64,000 bases of DNA from Winogradskyella immobilis (GTDB lineage: Bacteria; Bacteroidota; Bacteroidia; Flavobacteriales; Flavobacteriaceae): contig NZ_JAIQXX010000006.1 in assembly GCF_021887715.1 (NCBI RefSeq), positions 1-64,000 on the forward strand, written 5' to 3'. A program made the translations under genes and the position numbers. The stretch's first letter is position 1. The number at the start of each line of letters is the position of its first letter. This document shows, piece by piece, positions 29,674-39,661 of the stretch. The notes beneath the pieces were generated by a model. That model searched no databases, had not been told where the DNA came from, and was given only the letters and a program-made list of their open reading frames with translations.

Positions 29674-30426
29674 TTAATCAAAATCATTATTATCACTTGG
29701 CTTTCTATTCTCAAAATCATCCGTTATAACTTTTCTTAAATAATCGCAAAACAATCTATAATTCCCATTAGTCTTATATAGTTTTAGCTCTATTTCAAAA
29801 AGATTATCATGTTGCATCTTTATTCTAGGTATATATATTTCATTAAATTTTACATTGTAATCTTTATATACCCCAAAATATTTTTTCTTTTCTGAAATTT
29901 CCAACCATTCGTATTTTTTAGAATTAATCTTTAATGATTTAATTAAAAAACTCTTGTACGGATTTGAATATTCTCCACCTCCCAAAAACCTAGTAATAAA
30001 AGTATTTATTATATAAAACAACTCTTTGCTTCTTCCTTTTCCTTTATTTATAGAATTAAAGAGTGTTACAGAAAAAATATCCTTGTCAACATTTAAATCC
30101 AGAATTTTGAAATAATAGTTTGTTTCAAAAACTCTAAATAAATTAAATAGATATGTTTTTTCATATTTGCATCTTATAATTTCTATAACATCATTATTTA
30201 CAAGGTTGAAAATTGCTAATCGTATAGAAATTAATGCATACCAACTCCAATTAAAATTATCCGAAAAATTAAACTGTTGGTATTTTAATCGTGGATTTTT
30301 ACCTATAAAGAAAAGACTAATTTCATCGGATATAATTGGATCGAAACTTAGTTCTATCGGGATCTCTGAAATACGTTGTTTCTCATAAAGTTTTAACCCT
30401 AATAACTTTATATTATTAATAATCAT
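29674..30426 (-). CDS. Unknown protein, translationally coupled to the 565-residue gene
   Basis: 250 residues, no family recognised, no signal peptide or clear membrane span. Rich in Ile, Lys, Asn and Phe; contains FNLFRVFETNYYF and a short GKGRSKELFYIINTFITRFLGGG segment. Its ATG at 30426 abuts the stop codon of the upstream gene with no spacing (TAAATG), so the two are coupled. AT content appears higher than the neighbours. It could be a recent addition to the operon. Confidence 0.6.
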   Translation of the reverse strand: MIINNIKLLGLKLYEKQRISEIPIELSFDPIISDEISLFFIGKNPRLKYQQFNFSDNFNWSWYALISIRLAIFNLVNNDVIEIIRCKYEKTYLFNLFRVFETNYYFKILDLNVDKDIFSVTLFNSINKGKGRSKELFYIINTFITRFLGGGEYSNPYKSFLIKSLKINSKKYEWLEISEKKKYFGVYKDYNVKFNEIYIPRIKMQHDNLFEIELKLYKTNGNYRLFCDYLRKVITDDFENRKPSDNNDFD

Positions 30427-32124
30427 TTAATTATTCCCAGAAGCCTTTAAAGAATCTATTTCACGCTGTAACTGTTCGATACGCTTAGTGGTTTTATCTA
30501 CCTTAGGTAAGGTTTTTAAAGAATCTATAGTTTGTTCTATAATATCTTTATCTTCTAGTTCTTCTTGGTAATATTCACCTATCTTTTCGCTTGCTCTCCA
30601 AGCTTCATTAAGCTGGTCATATACTGTTTTATCCCAACCGTTCGGGTGTTTTACGTCGATCCAAATCACATCTCGGTATTCACTATCGATTAGAACAATA
30701 TCTGGTGTAGCAGAACCATCAAACTGTTGCGCGTCTGTATCGCTGATCGATGAGATTGTTCCTAAAAAAAATAACCGTTTACGACCTGCAATTTCTTTTA
30801 TATAAGGTCTAAATTCTACTGGAGTACTTGCATTCCAATCGTATTCTTTTCGAGATTCTTTTACTTTTAATGGCATTGCAGAAACACCTGCATAACCTTG
30901 TTTTTTACTAGCATGATCAAAATAATACAATTGATCTGAACCATCTGCCGGAATAAACACACTATAACTTAAACTCGTACGATCATCTCCCACAGGTTCT
31001 AAGCCAAACCAATGGTATAAACCACTATAAGCATTAGTGTTTGAGCCTGCAAAATCAAAATCGGTAACATAAGGCTGTTGGTTTTGGTCTTTTGGCATTT
31101 CTGGTATTTTAACTGCGGTTTCCATATTCCATGGCAGCGGATTGGTAAATCCACCCAAAAACTTTAAAGATTCTGCTTGCAATTGAGATACTTTCTCAGA
31201 TAATGTATTCTGTTTGGTTAAAAACGGGTAGTTTTTAATTTCACCCGGACTGATAAAAGTACCTTTACCAATGGTAATACGTTCTAGGTAATCATTAAAA
31301 TCGTGAGCACCACTTTCTACAATCATTACGCCACCAAAGGTTGGGTAAGGAAAAAAGAAGCCTTTCCATTTTATTAGACTCACTACTTCAACCCAATTAC
31401 CGTCATCGTTTTTCATGTAAAACGTATCGCTAGGTTCATAATTAAATAGCATCCAAGGATTAAAACGTTGTACTACGGCGTTATATGTGTTTCTGCTAAA
31501 TTTTAAAGATTCACCAATAGAAAACGTTACAGGTATACGATTTTCATTAGAAAAACGAGGAAATAGTGTTGTACTACTTACGGAGAATACTTCTTCTGTA
31601 TTATCGCTAATACGTTGCATAATATACTTTTCACTTGGCTGAATGGCCATTGTCCATTTATTTTCATTATCTACACGTACTAAATGTGGTAGAGAAACAT
31701 CTTTAGTCTCTCCTACACTTTCATTAGCCATAGAGAAAATATTACGTAAGGGCTGAATACGTTCATTTTGAGTTAGTGGCAATTCTGAAATCTCTACACG
31801 GTTTAGGTTATTGTAAACGTTATAGGTTTTCATATAATCGTACATTCTATAATGCCAACCAAATGCATATAGAATACCAAAGAAAACAGCTAAAAGTGCC
31901 AAAATGCCTAATCGTTTACCCGTACTTGGTGTTTTTCGGAATTTAATTAACCCAAAAACAAGCACTAAAGCAATGATAATTATAATGAATAAATACTTAC
32001 GTAGAAATAGTAAAAAAGGCTGATAGTCGTCTCTTAGTACAAATAAAGCAATAAGTAAGCCTAAACCAACTAGTGTGGTTACTATCTTTTGTTTTCTGCC
32101 TTTTTGCCAATATCGTTTTATCAT
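30427..32124 (-). CDS. Unknown 3-TM protein of the AAA cluster
   Basis: 565 residues. Three membrane helices at about 17-29 (TLVGLGLLIALFV), 42-60 (KYLFIIIIIALVLVFGLI) and 71-88 (LGILALLAVFFGILYAFG), then a large soluble domain (about 95-530) of mixed alpha/beta look, with conserved-type segments PWMLFNYEPSDTFYMK and YHWFGLEPVGDD, and a C-terminal coiled coil (about 520-562). Location of the soluble domain is probably periplasmic from the basic N-terminus. No known family recognised. Gene order with AAA ATPase and coiled-coil protein suggests a shared envelope complex. Confidence 0.75.
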   Translation of the reverse strand: MIKRYWQKGRKQKIVTTLVGLGLLIALFVLRDDYQPFLLFLRKYLFIIIIIALVLVFGLIKFRKTPSTGKRLGILALLAVFFGILYAFGWHYRMYDYMKTYNVYNNLNRVEISELPLTQNERIQPLRNIFSMANESVGETKDVSLPHLVRVDNENKWTMAIQPSEKYIMQRISDNTEEVFSVSSTTLFPRFSNENRIPVTFSIGESLKFSRNTYNAVVQRFNPWMLFNYEPSDTFYMKNDDGNWVEVVSLIKWKGFFFPYPTFGGVMIVESGAHDFNDYLERITIGKGTFISPGEIKNYPFLTKQNTLSEKVSQLQAESLKFLGGFTNPLPWNMETAVKIPEMPKDQNQQPYVTDFDFAGSNTNAYSGLYHWFGLEPVGDDRTSLSYSVFIPADGSDQLYYFDHASKKQGYAGVSAMPLKVKESRKEYDWNASTPVEFRPYIKEIAGRKRLFFLGTISSISDTDAQQFDGSATPDIVLIDSEYRDVIWIDVKHPNGWDKTVYDQLNEAWRASEKIGEYYQEELEDKDIIEQTIDSLKTLPKVDKTTKRIEQLQREIDSLKASGNN

Positions 32125-32161
32125 GTGATGTATTGTATTCTGAAAATTAAATTATTTAAAA

Positions 32162-32211
32162 GATCCTGAAAATAACACTTCGACTGCGCTCAGTGTGACA
32201 ATTCAGGATAT
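32162..32211. repeat. Dispersed Bacteroidota repeat (CACTTCGACTGCGCTCAGTG type)
   Basis: The string CACTTCGACTGCGCTCAGTG followed by TGACA, flanked by the short inverted pair GATCCTGA / TTCAGGATATC, lies in the gap between the 185- and 565-residue genes. I recall this GC-richer sequence as a widespread intergenic repeat in Bacteroidota. Confidence 0.6.
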
Positions 32212-32220
32212 CAATATATT

Positions 32221-32778
32221 TTACATTAAGCCTTTATCTTTTAAACGCTCACGAGCACTTTTCTTTTCTACTTCAGGTTCTATTTCTATTTCGTTTTGAG
32301 ATGTATCAGTTTCATTTAAAGTCTCAGAATCTCCCTTAGAACCTTTTGTTTTTAGATCTTCAATAAACTCTTTTCCTTTTTCAACAGCATCACCTACTAT
32401 ATCTCCTATAGAATCACTTTTCTCTTCTATAACTTCAGTTGATTTAATAACGAAATTTGCTAAATAAGTACCTACTAAAGTACCAACTGCAGCAGATGAC
32501 AATGCTGAAATGCCATTATAGCTCGCAAAGATTGAAATTGGTGTTAAGAATTCTAAAACTAAAGCTGTCATAAGAAATAAAACACCTACAAATATAATTC
32601 GTGGTATAAGTGTTTGCTTATAGATAAACCCTTTAGGATTATCAGCCGCCATTTGCAAAGCTTTGCTATTCATTACTTTATTAATAAATCGGTATAAACC
32701 ATTGCCGTTAGATTCTCGCCAATACAGAAAAATACCAAATAATATCGATCCTATAAAAATTACTAATTCTATTCCCAT
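32221..32778 (-). CDS. Unknown 3-TM protein with acidic C-terminal tail
   Basis: 185 residues. Membrane helices at about 3-19 (ELVIFIGSILFGIFLYW), 59-79 (RIIFVGVLFLMTALVLEFL) and 88-110 (ISALSSAAVGTLVGTYLANFV). Residues 115-185 are charged, with EEIEIEPEVEKK-like acid blocks and a basic end (ARERLKDKG), likely cytosolic. No family recognised. The gene sits between the S23-type gene and the 565-residue gene in the same direction. Confidence 0.75.
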   Translation of the reverse strand: MGIELVIFIGSILFGIFLYWRESNGNGLYRFINKVMNSKALQMAADNPKGFIYKQTLIPRIIFVGVLFLMTALVLEFLTPISIFASYNGISALSSAAVGTLVGTYLANFVIKSTEVIEEKSDSIGDIVGDAVEKGKEFIEDLKTKGSKGDSETLNETDTSQNEIEIEPEVEKKSARERLKDKGLM

Positions 32779-32786
32779 TTGTTATA

Positions 32787-32821
32787 AGTTTGAAGCCTGT
32801 AGTTTGAAGCTAGAAGCTTTT
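32787..32821. repeat. Heptad repeat tract B
   Basis: Five in-phase 7-bp units: AGTTTGA, AGCCTGT, AGTTTGA, AGCTAGA, AGCTTTT. GAAG-containing units here are the reverse complement of the units in tract C on the other side of the S23-type gene. Confidence 0.75.
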
Positions 32822-32828
32822 ACATGCT

Positions 32829-33182
32829 TTAATTAATTTTCTTTCTAAATGCGATTGTCATATTCATTAAATCAAAACAATTTTTGTAATGAAAGTTAAA
32901 TATATCTTCTTCAATATAAGACCTTCGCTTTGCTTTATGCAAACAAGTTACAACTTCTGCAATTGAACGGATTGCATATCCTAAAAACCGTCTATACTCT
33001 GCCGCAGATTGAAGAATACTGCCTTCAGATATATTTAAAGCTATTGAATCTGAAGCTCTTCGTATTTGAGAAGACAAATTATAAAGCTCTTTATCAGGAA
33101 AACGATCTGCGAGGCTGCTCATTTCCTCTCCTAGATCCATTCCTTTTTGCCAAATAATTAAATTCTCAAATTTGAATTTCAT
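32829..33182 (-). CDS. Four-helix-bundle protein (S23 / 23S rRNA-IVS family)
   Basis: 117 residues. The family hallmarks are FENLIIWQKGMDLGEEMSSL at the N-terminus, then LSSQIRRASDSIALNISEGS and YRRFLGYAIRSIAEVVTCL. Such proteins are often encoded by intervening sequences in 23S rRNA genes and in stand-alone form elsewhere; the fold is the same as the accessory Avd protein of diversity-generating retroelements. No reverse transcriptase is near. It interrupts the AAA operon and is bounded by inverted heptad tracts B and C, which suggests a later insertion. Confidence 0.9.
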   Translation of the reverse strand: MKFKFENLIIWQKGMDLGEEMSSLADRFPDKELYNLSSQIRRASDSIALNISEGSILQSAAEYRRFLGYAIRSIAEVVTCLHKAKRRSYIEEDIFNFHYKNCFDLMNMTIAFRKKIN

Positions 33183-33210
33183 ATTATAAGTCTATATTTT
33201 CAACAATTTG

Positions 33211-33254
33211 TTACTTCTTAACTTCCTTCTTCAGGCTTCTTACTTCAAAACTCC
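33211..33254. repeat. Heptad repeat tract C
   Basis: Units with CTTC at 7- to 8-bp spacing (starts about 33214, 33222, 33229, 33236, 33243). On the opposite strand it reads GAAGTAA, GAAGCCT, GAAGAAG, so it is inverted relative to tract B across the four-helix-bundle gene. Confidence 0.65.
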
Positions 33255-33256
33255 TA

Positions 33257-34492
33257 TTAAATATTGTTACTTATCGTTTCTATAACCCAGTCTCGAAAGG
33301 AATCATCCCATGTTTCATAATTTTTATAAAACTGTTCTTTATCATACCAATATAAAAGTAATACGTCATTGGGCGCCACATTAATTAACAATTTACTTAT
33401 TAAATCTCTATGATCTAAAGATAGTGACGAATGAGGCTCGTGCATGGCAAAATACATAGATTGCTCAACGATATCATTAACTTTATATGCATTACTGCGT
33501 TCTAGTTTTTCTAAATAAATTTCTACTCCCATCACTTGTTTACGAGATTTGATATCAATTTTATTTAGATAGCTCTTAAATAATACTTTATCACTTAATA
33601 TGTCTCTAATAGGATGCTCTGCATCGGTTAAAAACTTAGACAGCTCATTCTTCTTTACACGATCGTAACGTGAAGTCTTTATCATTTCTTCTAGATTACA
33701 TTGTATGATAAGATGGTCTTTTAACTTGTCCATCAGTTCAGGTTGCGCTACATGATAAATTAAAACATCATGAATGGTGTCTTTTATAGCTTCTTTATAA
33801 GCCTCTTTACTCTCAAAAACTACTATAGGCTTTATAAAATCTCGTAAAACATATACTCCATCAAAAGCACGAGTATAAAAAGAATCTGTTGAAAAACGAA
33901 TGGAATGTAACTTTAAATCTCTACCTCTTAAATCACCATAAGTTTTAGCTGATTTTAATATTTGTGCTTGTAAAGCTTCATCAATAAAATTATGATTGGT
34001 TTTAAACTTAGTAACCAACTCTAATTGCTCTTTTTGTATACGGTCTAGATCATCAATAAGACGAAAAGAGATACTAAGGTCTTTGTATTTTAAAACATCT
34101 AGTGGTTCATAAAAAACATCTATATCTTGATCAAAATCAATACATATTGCAGAATCTCTAGTAATATCATTAATCTTAGCTCCATGTGTTCTAAACACAT
34201 GTTTCATCATTTCTCTATCAAATGAATGGAATGGCAAATACACAGGTTTTCCTTTTTGTAAAGGAGAAATAATAATACCATGCGGATTTGCATCTCCGTG
34301 ATTTAGGTATTGAATATCATTCTTTTCTTCTGCAACTTCAGGACTCCAGCCTATCCCATCTATAGAAAATGACTCTAGTTTAGTCTCGGCAAAACCTAAT
34401 GTTACAAGGCATTTATTATAACGCTCTACTAGTTTTCCACTAACAGGTATGAGTTCACTTCTATATAAATTTGCTTTTTTTAGTTTGTTCAT
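33257..34492 (-). CDS. Unknown cytosolic protein of the AAA cluster (possibly DUF6638)
   Basis: 411 residues, no signal peptide or membrane segment. Mixed alpha/beta N-terminal half with HGDANPHGIIISPLQ and FHSFDREMMKHVFRTHG, a mostly helical C-terminal half with DHRDLISKLLINVAPNDVLL. I recall this as DUF6638, but that number is from memory. It lies between the 215-residue 2-TM gene and the inserted S23-type gene, and is likely a component of the same complex. Confidence 0.75.
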   Translation of the reverse strand: MNKLKKANLYRSELIPVSGKLVERYNKCLVTLGFAETKLESFSIDGIGWSPEVAEEKNDIQYLNHGDANPHGIIISPLQKGKPVYLPFHSFDREMMKHVFRTHGAKINDITRDSAICIDFDQDIDVFYEPLDVLKYKDLSISFRLIDDLDRIQKEQLELVTKFKTNHNFIDEALQAQILKSAKTYGDLRGRDLKLHSIRFSTDSFYTRAFDGVYVLRDFIKPIVVFESKEAYKEAIKDTIHDVLIYHVAQPELMDKLKDHLIIQCNLEEMIKTSRYDRVKKNELSKFLTDAEHPIRDILSDKVLFKSYLNKIDIKSRKQVMGVEIYLEKLERSNAYKVNDIVEQSMYFAMHEPHSSLSLDHRDLISKLLINVAPNDVLLLYWYDKEQFYKNYETWDDSFRDWVIETISNNI

Positions 34493-34536
34493 AAAAACTC
34501 ATTCTAAGTACTTTCTAAAGAAAATAACTTTAGTAT

Positions 34537-35184
34537 TTATTTTGTGTAAAATGTTTCAGAATGCCTGCTTGCCTTAGAGAATGAATCAATCCATTCAATA
34601 AAACTAATTGGTTTAAAATTCCTAAGCATCAACCATTCTATCGTATCATAGATATCAGATAAAATATCTTTATGCTCTTTTCTTAGAAACACTTTTCTCT
34701 TACCATAAAATTTATCTATACTATTAAGATTAAAATTCAACTTATTTTTAATTATTTCTTCTTGAAAACTTTTGCATTCTTTAAGATTTAACATTCTCCC
34801 ATTTATAAATGGATCGAACAATACTTGATAATAGTACCCATAGCGGTCTTGATGTTTTTGCCAATCTATTCCAACGACTACAGTATAACCCCTTAATTCA
34901 CCCACTATAAAATTCTCGTGCTTAAGGAAATTATGACTTAAAAATTCAATTAAAGGTGTTTTATCTAATAATCGCTTTATAAGCCATTTTTTATAATATT
35001 CATGTTTTATAAATTCAATACTCGACATTAATAACATAAAAACAAAGACAAAAACTAACAAGAATTTAAATCTATTAATATTTGAATTTGCATTGTCAAT
35101 AAAATACATAATGAACATTATAATAACATAAACAAAAATATATGTCACATAATATGATTTAAATATGTACCAAAATCTTTTCAA
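34537..35184 (-). CDS. Unknown 2-TM protein coupled to the AAA gene
   Basis: 215 residues. Two hydrophobic helices at about 12-28 and 40-56, followed by a basic cytosolic-type domain (KHEYYKKWLIKRLLDKTP) and GELRGYTVVVGIDWQKHQDRYGYYYQ. No family recognised. It starts three bases after the AAA stop, so it is coupled. The composition is more AT-rich and Phe/Lys/Tyr-rich than the AAA gene. It may vary between genomes. Confidence 0.65.
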   Translation of the reverse strand: MKRFWYIFKSYYVTYIFVYVIIMFIMYFIDNANSNINRFKFLLVFVFVFMLLMSSIEFIKHEYYKKWLIKRLLDKTPLIEFLSHNFLKHENFIVGELRGYTVVVGIDWQKHQDRYGYYYQVLFDPFINGRMLNLKECKSFQEEIIKNKLNFNLNSIDKFYGKRKVFLRKEHKDILSDIYDTIEWLMLRNFKPISFIEWIDSFSKASRHSETFYTK

Positions 35185-35187
35185 AGC

Positions 35188-37149
35188 TTAATCCTTCTTA
35201 CCAAACTGTTCTCTAGCTTCAGTTTCGATATTCATTTGGTTTACTCTAGCGTCTACTTTACGTTTAAAATCAGTATCTGCTATAGTAGCGACATTGTCTA
35301 AATACCGAATCACTTCTTGACGCCTAATATCTGAGAAATTTAACCCTTTCATATTAGATTTCATTAATTCTTGAAGCATATTGAACTTTGTCTCGTAATC
35401 TTTTTTGAAATACTTTTCAGGATTATCGAACCAACTTTCTTCTAAATCAAAATCTGTTAAGCGTAATGATATCGCAGATTGAATATTACGCACATCTCTT
35501 GATGAAAAGAATGGAAAGATCTTTTGAATCTCTTTAAATAACGCTGCATAGAACATATGATCTGTTTCTTGATGTAGTTTTTCTACTTTATCAAAAGTAT
35601 CATGCACGCGCTCTTCAGTTGGCTTTTCTACAGTATTTAAAATCTCGCCCATGCTCTTTGCTAAACCTTGATCTGCTAAATAGTCATAACCTTCCGGGTT
35701 TTTCATATTTACGAAGTTTGGCATAGTTTCTTGAAGTTTTCTCCACCATATGTAATCTTGATCTAGGAAATCGTGCTCAGAACGTGCACCATCAATTTTA
35801 AAACGGCCTTGTACACGAGATATCACAGCTTTGTCTAACATTTCAGGAAGATTTGTAAATAGACCTATAGAGCTATTTCCGTAATTAACAGCATATGCTC
35901 CTTCTGTATATCGTAAAAACACGCCTATAACCTCTTTTACACCTGCTGAAACTCCTTGTGCTGTTCGCTCTTGTAAATTATTTTCTGCATCATCAATTGG
36001 TGCAAAAATCAGTTTTGTAGGATCTTGCAAGGGTTTCATCCATTCTACCATTTTCTCTGCTGAACCTCCTTGAAATGTACTAATTAAAGTGTCTGGCATT
36101 GGGTGAAATAGAAACGGAATATCTAAATGATCTGCATGTTCTTTGAGTCGGGTTGCAATGGCTGCAATCAACATACTTTTTCCTGTTCCAGGAATACCAT
36201 AACCCATAAACACAGGCATAAATCCACCTAATTCTTGAAACGGGTTCTTTTTTACTTCAAAATCATAGCTCAATAAACGTTCCGTTAAACGACGTGCAAA
36301 ATGTTTAGCATCACGGTTACCTACAATCTGTTCAAACTTAATTTTATTAAATTCTACACTTTTTGCTGTACCTTCAAAGGTGTTTTCCCAGCCAGAAACT
36401 GCAAATTCTGAGTTTTCTAATTTATAAGTTCTGTCTACTATAGTTTCAGTATATTCTAAACTATTTTTACGCAATTGAATCTCAGCAATTAGAGCTTCAA
36501 AATAAACCACCGTAAAATTAATGACATCTTTATCTGACTTTATAATATCTGGATGTCCAAGGTATTTATCGTAATAAAACAAACTACAAGAAATTCCTTT
36601 TAAAGGCGATAATAATGATACTTCTGGAATGCCTGCAAATTTTTGCTTCATTACGCTTAAATCATCAGATGCATGTGGTTTAATATCGTTAAGAATTTTA
36701 TACGCCGTAGCAAATAGCATAAAAGCTGTTGCTGTATGCATTTTACTTTCGTATTCTCGTTTACCTGAGGTATCTAATGCTGATTTATTTTCGCTTAATG
36801 TAGATAAACCCGAAGCGTCGTAATAACTGTCTTTAATCCAAAGTCCTAATCCTATACCTTCTTGAACCGCATACAATGTCTGATTTAAATAAACAGGAAT
36901 TGCTATAGAATCTGGTAATAAGCGTTTTTTTAAACCTAGTATTGTTTTAGAAACAGATGTAATATTTACAGAACTACCGCTATTGGCTCTTGATAAATAC
37001 AATAAAATTGATTCATCTTTTGCGTCTTTATCTCTATTTTTTGCTCGTGATCCTTGCTCCCATTGTACACTTTTTAAATATGAAGAAGCTTCATCTCGAA
37101 GCATATCGAGTTCTGATAATTTTATAGGAAAAGTTGAATTGTGTTCCAT
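35188..37149 (-). CDS. AAA-family ATPase (classic clade), core of the unknown cluster
   Basis: 653 residues with one AAA module at about 270-460. Walker A GIPGTGKS (318-325, Lys324), a pore loop in classic-AAA context (STFQGGSAEKMVEW, about 357-370), Walker B IFAPIDDAEN (Asp386-Asp387 instead of the usual Asp-Glu), and the sensor-1/arginine-finger strand FTNLPEMLDKAVISRVQGRF (431-450). The N-terminal 270 residues are helical and unlike known AAA adaptors; the C-terminal 200 are helical and charged. This clade includes spastin, katanin, Vps4 and p97 relatives that pull proteins through a hexamer pore. A substrate in the cluster (the coiled-coil protein) is an inference. Confidence 0.93.
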   Translation of the reverse strand: MEHNSTFPIKLSELDMLRDEASSYLKSVQWEQGSRAKNRDKDAKDESILLYLSRANSGSSVNITSVSKTILGLKKRLLPDSIAIPVYLNQTLYAVQEGIGLGLWIKDSYYDASGLSTLSENKSALDTSGKREYESKMHTATAFMLFATAYKILNDIKPHASDDLSVMKQKFAGIPEVSLLSPLKGISCSLFYYDKYLGHPDIIKSDKDVINFTVVYFEALIAEIQLRKNSLEYTETIVDRTYKLENSEFAVSGWENTFEGTAKSVEFNKIKFEQIVGNRDAKHFARRLTERLLSYDFEVKKNPFQELGGFMPVFMGYGIPGTGKSMLIAAIATRLKEHADHLDIPFLFHPMPDTLISTFQGGSAEKMVEWMKPLQDPTKLIFAPIDDAENNLQERTAQGVSAGVKEVIGVFLRYTEGAYAVNYGNSSIGLFTNLPEMLDKAVISRVQGRFKIDGARSEHDFLDQDYIWWRKLQETMPNFVNMKNPEGYDYLADQGLAKSMGEILNTVEKPTEERVHDTFDKVEKLHQETDHMFYAALFKEIQKIFPFFSSRDVRNIQSAISLRLTDFDLEESWFDNPEKYFKKDYETKFNMLQELMKSNMKGLNFSDIRRQEVIRYLDNVATIADTDFKRKVDARVNQMNIETEAREQFGKKD

Positions 37150-37155
37150 TTTTAC

Positions 37156-37189
37156 TTTTAGCTTTTGGCTGTTAGTTTTTAGGTTTAGA
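37156..37189. repeat. Heptad repeat tract D
   Basis: In-phase units TTTTAGC, TTTTGGC, TGTTAGT, TTTTAGG, then TTTAGA fill the gap between the AAA gene start and the preceding gene stop. Confidence 0.6.
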
Positions 37190-37190
37190 T

Positions 37191-38231
37191 TTAACTATTT
37201 AAATCTGACATCTGTATTGGCGGTTTAGCTAGCTTATCTATAACTTCTGGTGCTTTATTATATAACATTTGAATAATTCTATGTGGTGCCATGACATAAT
37301 TCTGTTTTATAATTTCTGTCCATTTTTGAAATATCTGTTTATTAAAAAAACTACCTTCTTTAAACTCGCTTGTAGAAATAACTTCATTAATCTTTAATGA
37401 AAATGCATAAGCTTCTAATGGCACTTCTTTTTTAGCAATACTCTCTAATATGGCATGTGTAATTTCGTTTTCATCTTTTGCAAATACATTATGTAATGGT
37501 CCTAAATCTATACGTTTTATATGTTTTGGCAACAAATCTGGTAATTTACGATCTATTGCATAAGCCATAGCATCTAAATTCATTTTACGATCTGCAGATT
37601 GCTTAATCGCTTGGTATATTTCTTTCCTGTCATTATTAGGGTTTCTCCCATCATAATTAAAGTACATAAAACATATAAACGGTCTGTTTAATGACACATC
37701 ATAAAAACTCCAGCTTGTCATATATTCTGATGAAGATTCTTTTGGAGCTTCTATAATTTTGCCTTGAACAAACCTATTAAAGATAAACTGTTGCTTTACA
37801 TTAGTATAGTATACAATTGAAGCCGCTTGAAAAAGTTTTGATTTTTTAATCGGCTGTTTCTTGCGCATTAAGGTATCTAAAAATTCGTCTTGAAGTATCT
37901 CAATATCTGTTAATTTATTAAGGTATTCTTCCCTTAAAGCCAAATCGTTAAAAAGATATCTAAACTCTAAATAATTAGGAAACCCAGAATCTGTAAGATC
38001 AATTTTCATATTGTCTTCATCATCGTACATGTATTTAACACGCATGGCTTCTATAGAGTACAACAACAAATCACAATATTGCTTAAAGAAAATTAATTCT
38101 TGCTCAGAGCATAACTGCTGCTGTTGCATTTTAACAATGAGCTCTTTAATGGTAAAATCAACCATTTTATGATAAAACTCATATTGTGCTTTAGAGTCTA
38201 ATTGTGCTGAATCTAATGGGGTTACGATCAT
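37191..38231 (-). CDS. Unknown helical protein of the AAA cluster
   Basis: 346 residues, soluble, no signal peptide. Largely helical; the only notable strings are VDFTIKELIVKMQQQQLCSE and YEFYHKMVDF near the N-terminus, and a central beta stretch SWSFYDVSLNRPFICFMYFN followed by NDRKEIYQAIKQSADRKMNL. No family recognised. It lies between the coiled-coil and AAA genes and probably acts as their adaptor, though that is only from gene order. Confidence 0.75.
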   Translation of the reverse strand: MIVTPLDSAQLDSKAQYEFYHKMVDFTIKELIVKMQQQQLCSEQELIFFKQYCDLLLYSIEAMRVKYMYDDEDNMKIDLTDSGFPNYLEFRYLFNDLALREEYLNKLTDIEILQDEFLDTLMRKKQPIKKSKLFQAASIVYYTNVKQQFIFNRFVQGKIIEAPKESSSEYMTSWSFYDVSLNRPFICFMYFNYDGRNPNNDRKEIYQAIKQSADRKMNLDAMAYAIDRKLPDLLPKHIKRIDLGPLHNVFAKDENEITHAILESIAKKEVPLEAYAFSLKINEVISTSEFKEGSFFNKQIFQKWTEIIKQNYVMAPHRIIQMLYNKAPEVIDKLAKPPIQMSDLNS

Positions 38232-38240
38232 ATACTTTTG

Positions 38241-38304
38241 CAGTATGCAGTTGTCAGTTTACAGTAAGCCGAACAGCTAACTGTAAACTGAACACCGTTA
38301 ACTA
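38241..38304. repeat. Heptad repeat tract E with internal inverted repeat
   Basis: Units CAGTATG, CAGTTGT, CAGTTTA, CAGTAAG, then on the other half CTAACTG, TAAACTG, AACACCG, TTAACTA. CAGTTTACAG (38255-38264) and CTGTAAACTG (38281-38290) are perfect complements, so the tract can form a hairpin. Confidence 0.75.
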
Positions 38305-38308
38305 ATTT

Positions 38309-39661
38309 CTATCCTAATAAATCATCATTATTAGCATCTGGTTCTGGTGCTGAGTCTCCAGATCCGTCTGATCCACCATCATTACTTGGTGCTGTGTCAT
38401 CTGATTTATAGTATTCTTCAAAAATTTCTTTCATATCTATACCATAACGATCTGCAAAGTTTTTTTGAATATCTACATCTTTTTTACGGATTTCTTGTAA
38501 AGCTTCAGCATAACTGCCATAGACACCTTGCATTACTTTTTCGTGTACAGGAATATTATCCATCATTTCTTGACGAGCCCTAGCACTAGCGGTATGCATA
38601 GCGGCGAGTGTTTCGCCAATATGCTCATCGGTTTTAACACCTAAATGTTCTAATATAGCAGCAAATTCCTGATCTGTACGTGCTTTTAATGCTACTATAT
38701 AACCATCATAATACTTAAGACGTTCGTCTGTATCACTTTTTAATTTTGCACGATGTGTTTGTAAGTTACTACGTAAAGACGTTAATACTTTGATCGTTAA
38801 ATTATGTTTGTGTACAAAACTATCTTTAGATGCTGCCAATGTTGTATATGCATTTTTAAGACCTTCTAATTCTTCAACCTTTTGTTCTAGTTTTGTTACT
38901 TTTGATAATGCTTCAGAATATTCTGTAGATTGTTTGTCTGCTACTTCTTCTAAAGCAGTACGAGCCTGCTTAAGTAAAGCATAGCTTTCTTCTAGCTTGT
39001 CTTCTACTTCTTGTTTCTTTTCTAATGCTTTTGTATGATTTCTACTAGCTTCTACTATTGCGTCTTGTAATTTATCTTCAACCTCTTTGATTTCAACTTC
39101 TCTGTCTTTTAAACGTTTAACAGCTGCTTGACTTTTAAAAGAGAGTTCGTTTAATAGCGTTTGCACATCTGCGGTTTCGATACGTTGCTGAAACATAGCC
39201 TTAGCCTTATTATCTGCAGAATCACGTACTTTTTGTGCTTCTTTAAACTCTTCTTCTTCGCGCTTAATTTTACTCTTACGTCCCCAAAGATTATTCCACC
39301 ATGTATCTGGCTTATTTTGCGCATCTTCTAATTCTATTCTAGCGCGTTCTAAACCTTTAACGGCATCGTCAATGATTTTTTGCTCCTCTGCATTTAATGC
39401 GGAAAAACCTTCAAACATAATACCAACCTCATCTTGATAATCAGTAAGATCCTTAATGGCATCTAATAGTGTTGATCTATCTTTCTCTGCCATATCAACC
39501 ACATTATCTAAAGTTGCGTTAAGAATTTTTTGACGACTTTCCGGATCGTCTTCTTGTGCTAACTTAGATTTCATTTGGTCAATGGCTTTGCCCCAATTGA
39601 CATCTACTTTTTCTGGTTTTTCGTTGGAATTCGTTTCTAATAAATCAAAATCATCAGACAT
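38309..39661 (-). CDS. Acidic coiled-coil protein, first gene of the AAA cluster
   Basis: 450 residues from MSDDFDLLETNSNEK (ATG at 39661; the frame opens 14 codons earlier). Long coiled coil about 170-310 with heptad Leu/Glu/Lys patterns, a tryptophan-rich patch PDTWWNNLWGRKSKIKREEE (about 117-136) that could touch membrane or partner, a second helical part (about 310-410), and a low-complexity acidic tail (SDDTAPSNDGGSDGSGD...). Similar proteins are sometimes annotated as microtubule-binding, which is only the coiled-coil resemblance. A TelA/KlaA-like relation is possible but unproven. It is first in the operon, so it is likely the most abundant product. Confidence 0.8.
   Translation of the reverse strand: MSDDFDLLETNSNEKPEKVDVNWGKAIDQMKSKLAQEDDPESRQKILNATLDNVVDMAEKDRSTLLDAIKDLTDYQDEVGIMFEGFSALNAEEQKIIDDAVKGLERARIELEDAQNKPDTWWNNLWGRKSKIKREEEEFKEAQKVRDSADNKAKAMFQQRIETADVQTLLNELSFKSQAAVKRLKDREVEIKEVEDKLQDAIVEASRNHTKALEKKQEVEDKLEESYALLKQARTALEEVADKQSTEYSEALSKVTKLEQKVEELEGLKNAYTTLAASKDSFVHKHNLTIKVLTSLRSNLQTHRAKLKSDTDERLKYYDGYIVALKARTDQEFAAILEHLGVKTDEHIGETLAAMHTASARARQEMMDNIPVHEKVMQGVYGSYAEALQEIRKKDVDIQKNFADRYGIDMKEIFEEYYKSDDTAPSNDGGSDGSGDSAPEPDANNDDLLG

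Follow-up and report, generated by a model that had tools for sequence, protein, structure and literature searches.

What cellular task could bring an AAA ATPase, a coiled-coil protein and a set of membrane proteins together in one bacterial gene cluster? The question is raised by positions 30427-39661 of a stretch of Winogradskyella immobilis DNA (the window: 64,000 nucleotides, positions 1 to 64,000 of contig NZ_JAIQXX010000006.1, assembly GCF_021887715.1). An initial annotation, made from the nucleotide letters alone, described eight open reading frames on one strand in and beside this range, and proposed a coiled-coil assembly at the membrane that is remodelled by the AAA protein, by analogy to ESCRT-III/Vps4 or TelA-type systems. 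All eight reading frames are present, on the minus strand, and six genes of the region form a real unit. They encode an acidic coiled-coil protein (cc450), a soluble protein (h346), the AAA protein (AAA653 in the window), a protein of the DUF6638 family and two membrane proteins (g185 and g565). The unit is maintained in marine flavobacteria, and its first four members recur as a core, in the same order, in some distant Proteobacteria.

Gene order was compared across 118 AAA-bearing loci, taken from 38 of 40 stretches and from the best 80 of 340 in a genome-contig collection. These loci hold 113 distinct AAA proteins, and counts of gene order refer to distinct loci. The series cc450-h346-AAA-DUF6638-g185-g565 was complete, in order and on one strand in 108 of the 113, so the cluster is more than chance; four of the five exceptions stop at contig ends, and the fifth is locus L070. 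An ABC-F gene adjoins the cluster in 96 of the 118 loci. The linkage and shared order that the initial annotation proposed to look for in other genomes are thus present, and the unit does include membrane proteins, namely g185 and g565. Two further genes that had been counted as members fall away: the one for a 215-residue protein (g215) was found in 1 of the 118 loci, and for the abutting one, which encodes a 250-residue protein (g250), 8 of the 118 show distant homologs in the neighbourhood of g565.

Members of the unit are also kept or lost together. Genome-wide co-occurrence was followed for AAA, cc450, DUF6638 and g565 in 199 Flavobacteriaceae genomes from 198 genera, while the linkage of h346 and g185 comes from the loci. 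After removal of two AAA matches that are FtsH (genomes G064 and G224), AAA was found in 62 of the 199 genomes, and cc450 in the identical 62. DUF6638 is present in 61 of these; the AAA genome that lacks it (G186, 73% complete) also lacks g565. The g565 gene occurs in the same 61 genomes and in 2 of the 137 without AAA: G192, which has kept g565, the neighbouring ABC-F gene and a NUDIX gene but no other gene of the cluster, and G196 (87% complete), in which g185 and g565 are left. Members are unlinked in a single genome, G126, where cc450-h346-AAA, DUF6638-g185 and g565 lie at three separate places, yet all six genes are retained. Within the window's genus, AAA is present in 22 of 24 relatives; it was found in 5 of 395 phylum-wide genomes, all of them Flavobacteriaceae, and in none of 15 genomes from other families of the order. 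Of 18 comparisons of the window with three relatives, 11 yielded a finite ratio of nonsynonymous to synonymous substitution rates (dN/dS), always below 0.18; synonymous sites were saturated in the other seven, including all three for g565.

Beyond the phylum, a protein search over 72,556 plasmid records revealed full-length relatives of AAA, with 26-29% identity, in ten records from Vibrio, Sinorhizobium, Shinella and Rhizobium. The order cc, h, AAA, DUF6638 was held in all six proteobacterial loci examined, a conservation that is new here. Rhizobial and Vibrio h and DUF6638 queries returned the same ten records as AAA, and the cc query returned those ten plus one, R. leguminosarum pSK03. Comparison of flavobacterial and proteobacterial families by hhalign gave 100% for AAA, 99.9% for DUF6638, 98.3 and 98.4% for h, and 92.9 and 78.1% for cc. 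As a control for the last two families, hhalign was run against 40 shuffles of each protein and against reversed sequences: the real scores (43.6-56.3 for three cc proteins, 104.6 and 107.9 for two h proteins) exceed the maxima of 25.0 for shuffles and 21.9 for reversed sequences. The Pfam AAA model (PF00004) matched the Vibrio protein at 50.1 bits and the S. meliloti protein at 41.8 bits.

An order kept between Bacteroidota and Proteobacteria, by genes that are lost or kept together, must reflect a function maintained by selection, and the module looks like a real, unstudied cellular machine. In addition, AAA and cc450 are strictly paired, and both are accompanied by h346 and DUF6638 in two phyla, which points to one machine. 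Neither the module nor DUF6638 was found described in the open PubMed Central literature, a scope distinct from subscription papers and preprints. The initial annotation recognized no function in any member, and none is assigned here, but the 411-residue protein does belong to a named family, DUF6638 (PF20343; 115.8 bits against a cut-off of 27, E 3e-33), a family name without known function. No Pfam, NCBIfam or PADLOC model matched the cc and h proteins above its cut-off, and the AAA protein is divergent with an unusual Walker B motif. Searches of the Protein Data Bank (PDB) with other cluster profiles gave no match for A2 (E 1) or A4 (E 5) and single chance-level matches for A3 (0.39) and A6 (0.026); the Vibrio h profile had no PDB match.

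Membrane partners of the core vary by lineage. In Sinorhizobium and Shinella, DUF6638 is followed by a membrane-type protein of the DUF2333 family (PF10095), again a name without known function, and no homologs of g185 or g565 were found in the proteobacterial loci. In the flavobacteria, transmembrane segments were predicted with a simple hydropathy scan and topology from loop charge. Of the three segments first assigned to each membrane protein, those of g565 stand, but only two exceed the threshold in the window's g185; of the 108 distinct g185 proteins, 23 have two and 85 have three. The g185 tail is predicted to be cytosolic in all 85 three-segment proteins and ends in a SAR-E/D-R motif in 104 of the 108, with variants in the other four, and the large domain of g565 is predicted to be periplasmic in 106 of 106 three-segment proteins. 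Kinship of g185 to YqhA was considered and dropped (hhalign 0.1%), as was DUF4199 as the family of g565, to which 7 of 15 g565 proteins gave a weak match (best E 3.8e-4; window protein E 0.92, over the transmembrane part). The predicted structure of g565 was useless, with a predicted local distance difference test score (pLDDT) of 42.9.

This variation among lineages raises the possibility that the four core proteins make up the machine and that g185 and g565 serve a separate envelope function that is merely linked to it. Such a division would fit the proteobacterial loci, whose rhizobial DUF2333 protein shows no detectable homology to g565 (hhalign 0.6%), as well as the retention of g565 without the core in G192 and G196. 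We nevertheless consider it very unlikely, because g565 is found in 61 of 62 core genomes and only 2 of 137 others, and because G126 has kept it even though it is unlinked.

AAA653 matches PF00004 at 36.2 bits (cut-off 21.2) and contains the motifs quoted in the initial annotation. GIPGTGKS and R-I/V-Q-G/A-RF occur in all 113 distinct flavobacterial AAA proteins, TFQGGSAEKM and FTNLPE in 112 each. Across phyla, all 10 proteins compared share the Walker A motif, the pore-loop QG, the Walker-B IDD, the sensor-1 Asn and two Arg without variation, and the pore-loop aromatic is F or Y. The best PDB matches of the domain are an archaeal VCP-like ATPase (E 2.9e-6) and Vps4B (6.7e-4), in keeping with the classic-clade assignment made at the outset. 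In all 113 flavobacterial proteins, as in the 10 across phyla, the Walker-B IDD, which aligns to LDE of archaeal VCP, places Asp at the position of the catalytic Glu (hDE elsewhere), so this is a variant of the classic AAA domain. DnaA likewise has DD. The substitution suggests slow or regulated hydrolysis. Ahead of the domain lies a region of ~260 residues without known family, and no MIT domain was among the Pfam matches of AAA653 up to E 1. A relationship of the rhizobial AAA to TRIP13 was not retained: the match was weak (1e-5), and none of nine proteins matched HORMA.

AAA proteins of the VCP-like, proteasomal and FtsH kinds, which handle many clients, are among the best matches of the domain. 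It is therefore possible that the cluster encodes a membrane-proximal unfoldase or quality-control chaperone, in which AAA would unfold or extract clients and cc450, h346 and DUF6638 would be adaptors or scaffold. The obligate soluble partners suit adaptors, and two membrane proteins accompany the flavobacterial core. However, the unit includes no protease gene, and the coiled-coil gene accompanies AAA in every one of its 62 genomes out of 199 and is absent from the others, a strict pairing that suits a dedicated partner. This explanation is rather doubtful taken alone, though nearly as likely as the remodelling of a coiled-coil assembly.

The coiled-coil protein itself has an isoelectric point of 4.8 and is nearly all helical in its predicted model. 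None of 17 cc450 proteins matched PspA_IM30 or Snf7 at E 0.1, and PspA was rejected as a relative after hhalign to a flavobacterial PspA gave 0.4%. TelA (PF05816) gave no match in the family-model searches, the sole comparison made. Foldseek with the cc450 model returned nothing at E 0.001 (best AhlC, 2.8e-3). VIA-align Z scores obtained with this weak model were 13.2 for AhlC, 12.2 for ClyA, 10.2 for PspA, 9.9 for ESCRT-III (CHMP1B/IST1) and ~10 for F-BAR, values that do not tell ESCRT-III, F-BAR and ClyA-type folds apart; those for PspA and ESCRT-III are of the size that helical bundles give. CofC matches in 12 of the 17 proteins (best E 9.6e-5) were taken as coiled-coil noise, since the model is all helical. 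An acidic DDLL tail ends 106 of 112 distinct flavobacterial cc450 proteins, with DDML in the remaining six.

A further possibility is a role in stress response or phage defence (a conflict system), similar to TelA/Ter or IetAS. It could be indicated by weak matches of cc450, of the coiled-coil kind, to JetC (8.1e-5) and LmuB (1.8e-4), by a weak similarity of the AAA domain to IetA, detected in all 17 members (best E 5.9e-5), and by the patchy presence in 62 of 199 genomes. Against this, the curated model (IteA) was matched at 14.5 bits, far under its cut-off of 510, no IetS was found among ten cluster proteins, no relatives of the cluster were present in annotated phage records or viral contigs, and the cluster holds a fixed place beside the ABC-F gene. 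A system of this kind is thus very unlikely.

The analogy to ESCRT-III and Vps4 is in part supported, through the domain of the ATPase, and may or may not extend to its coiled-coil partner. Like Vps4 or CdvC with ESCRT-III, this is a classic AAA protein with a pore loop and an adjoining gene for a helical partner, and Vps4 is among the best matches of its domain. Unlike them, it has the N-terminal region and the Walker-B Asp described above, it scores 17.6 bits against the CdvC cut-off of 650 (NF041006), its coiled-coil partner lacks a Snf7 or PspA match, and h346 and DUF6638 are extra partners. A related idea has been put forward for other proteins: helical PspA/Snf7 proteins and AAA ATPases in some bacteria were proposed to carry out ATP-dependent membrane remodelling (PMC11237479). 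Those loci differ from the present one in that the window genome, when searched, had no PspA, cc450 is not detectably homologous to PspA, and h346 and DUF6638 are not named in the sections of that report used for comparison. PspA was found in 17 of the 199 family genomes and together with AAA in one (G233), against 5.3 expected (P 0.012, kinship ignored), which is only a hint that this unit replaces PspA. The more specific proposal of a bacterial membrane-remodelling machine, ESCRT-III/Vps4-like in action, whose polymer is an unrelated coiled coil joined by two obligate partner families, and which replaces PspA in flavobacteria that lack it, is unlikely.

In the explanation that we tentatively favor, AAA acts at the inner membrane as the remodeller of a coiled-coil assembly. 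It would assemble into a ring and pull on cc450 through its pore loops, and the cc450 assembly would be taken apart or reorganized at the expense of ATP, with h346 and DUF6638 as soluble partners for recruiting the substrate or giving it shape. The machine would be held at the inner membrane by lineage-specific proteins: in flavobacteria g185, through its cytosolic tail, and g565, with its periplasmic domain, and in most rhizobial loci seen DUF2333. On the simplest reading, the coiled coil would be the assembly on which AAA works, near the membrane. The leftovers of incomplete sets are consistent with this: g565 in G192, g185 with g565 in G196, and, in pSK03 (locus L206, 9895-12249; plasmid record only), cc with DUF2333 and no other member, at a site whose flanking genes are those of the complete set in S. 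meliloti.

Several points weigh against this explanation. Ring, substrate, polymer, membrane site, anchoring, interaction and hydrolysis rate are all inferred, and the Walker-B Asp could mean that ATP is hardly hydrolysed. No PDB sequence was matched at E 0.01 by the profile of the full-length AAA protein (A1). No homology of cc450 to any membrane-remodelling family was detected, its model is weak (pLDDT 66.9), and the folds that match it best, those of ClyA-type toxins, do so with scores that helical bundles commonly reach. The DDLL tail was considered as an AAA-recruiting motif, yet proteobacterial cc proteins lack it, so it is lineage-specific at best. Anchors are not found throughout, as no DUF2333 match was present in the stretch of the R. 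leguminosarum TP16 locus and the annotation names no membrane protein among the neighbors of the Vibrio set (annotation only, with no transmembrane scan there). Finally, G192 and G196 carry g565 without AAA, cc450 or DUF6638. If the explanation is correct, bacteria would have in this module a second way of doing the work of ESCRT-III and Vps4, and the pairing of AAA with a coiled-coil protein makes the idea directly testable.

Table 1. Genes of the cluster and its immediate surroundings in the window (aa, amino acids; TM, transmembrane segments).
Feature	Position	Strand	Description
cc450, core member 1	38309..39661	-	450 aa; acidic, mostly helical coiled-coil protein
h346, core member 2	37191..38231	-	346 aa; soluble, without known family
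AAA653, core member 3	35188..37149	-	653 aa; classic-clade AAA, Walker-B IDD, N-terminal region without known family
g215	34537..35184	-	215 aa, TTG start, two predicted TM; non-conserved
DUF6638 protein (PF20343), core member 4	33257..34492	-	411 aa; Pfam family
Four-helix-bundle protein (23S_rRNA_IVP / TIGR02436)	32829..33182	-	117 aa; probable passenger
g185, flavobacterial member	32221..32778	-	185 aa; membrane protein, charged tail with SAR-E/D-R motif
g565, flavobacterial member	30427..32124	-	565 aa; three TM, large C-terminal domain
g250	29674..30426	-	250 aa; abuts g565, just outside 30427-39661; non-conserved

With regard to transcription as one operon, promoter-like and terminator-like sites are no commoner than in shuffled sequence, and the Bacteroidota promoter pattern gave 6 matches against 6.24 expected, none inside the cluster.

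Other genes come and go at the locus. Of 112 distinct loci, 79 have a NudK-type NUDIX gene in the gap that separates AAA from DUF6638 (L053-L092 and L105-L184), and one such protein matches TIGR00052 at E 1.7e-46. No NUDIX gene of this type was found in the window genome, so the gene is dispensable; g215 occupies the place where most relatives have it. The reading frame for the four-helix-bundle protein, which was overlooked in the initial annotation, matches 23S_rRNA_IVP at E 2.5e-28. Of the 112 distinct loci, 14 contain its gene, which follows DUF6638 in eight and h346 in six, like a mobile passenger.

There are also minor features of the proteobacterial loci. The Vibrio set (L200, L202; 12136-15597) is on 0.9-Mb so-called plasmid records, directly before a gene annotated mfd, and the Vibrio AAA gene had no DNA match in E. 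coli genomes. In Shinella (L204, 7001-8914), the stretch that matches the rhizobial AAA has one stop codon. The cc protein of pSK03 aligned only to residue 349 of 362, with 32% identity, and its C-terminal third looks altered. A TIGR00645 gene is also near DUF2333 in pSK03, and in Skermanella (L207, 7827-9487) a YqhA-family gene comes directly after DUF2333. In P. fluorescens, duf2333 adjoins a NUDIX gene, according to a passage in PMC5256989.

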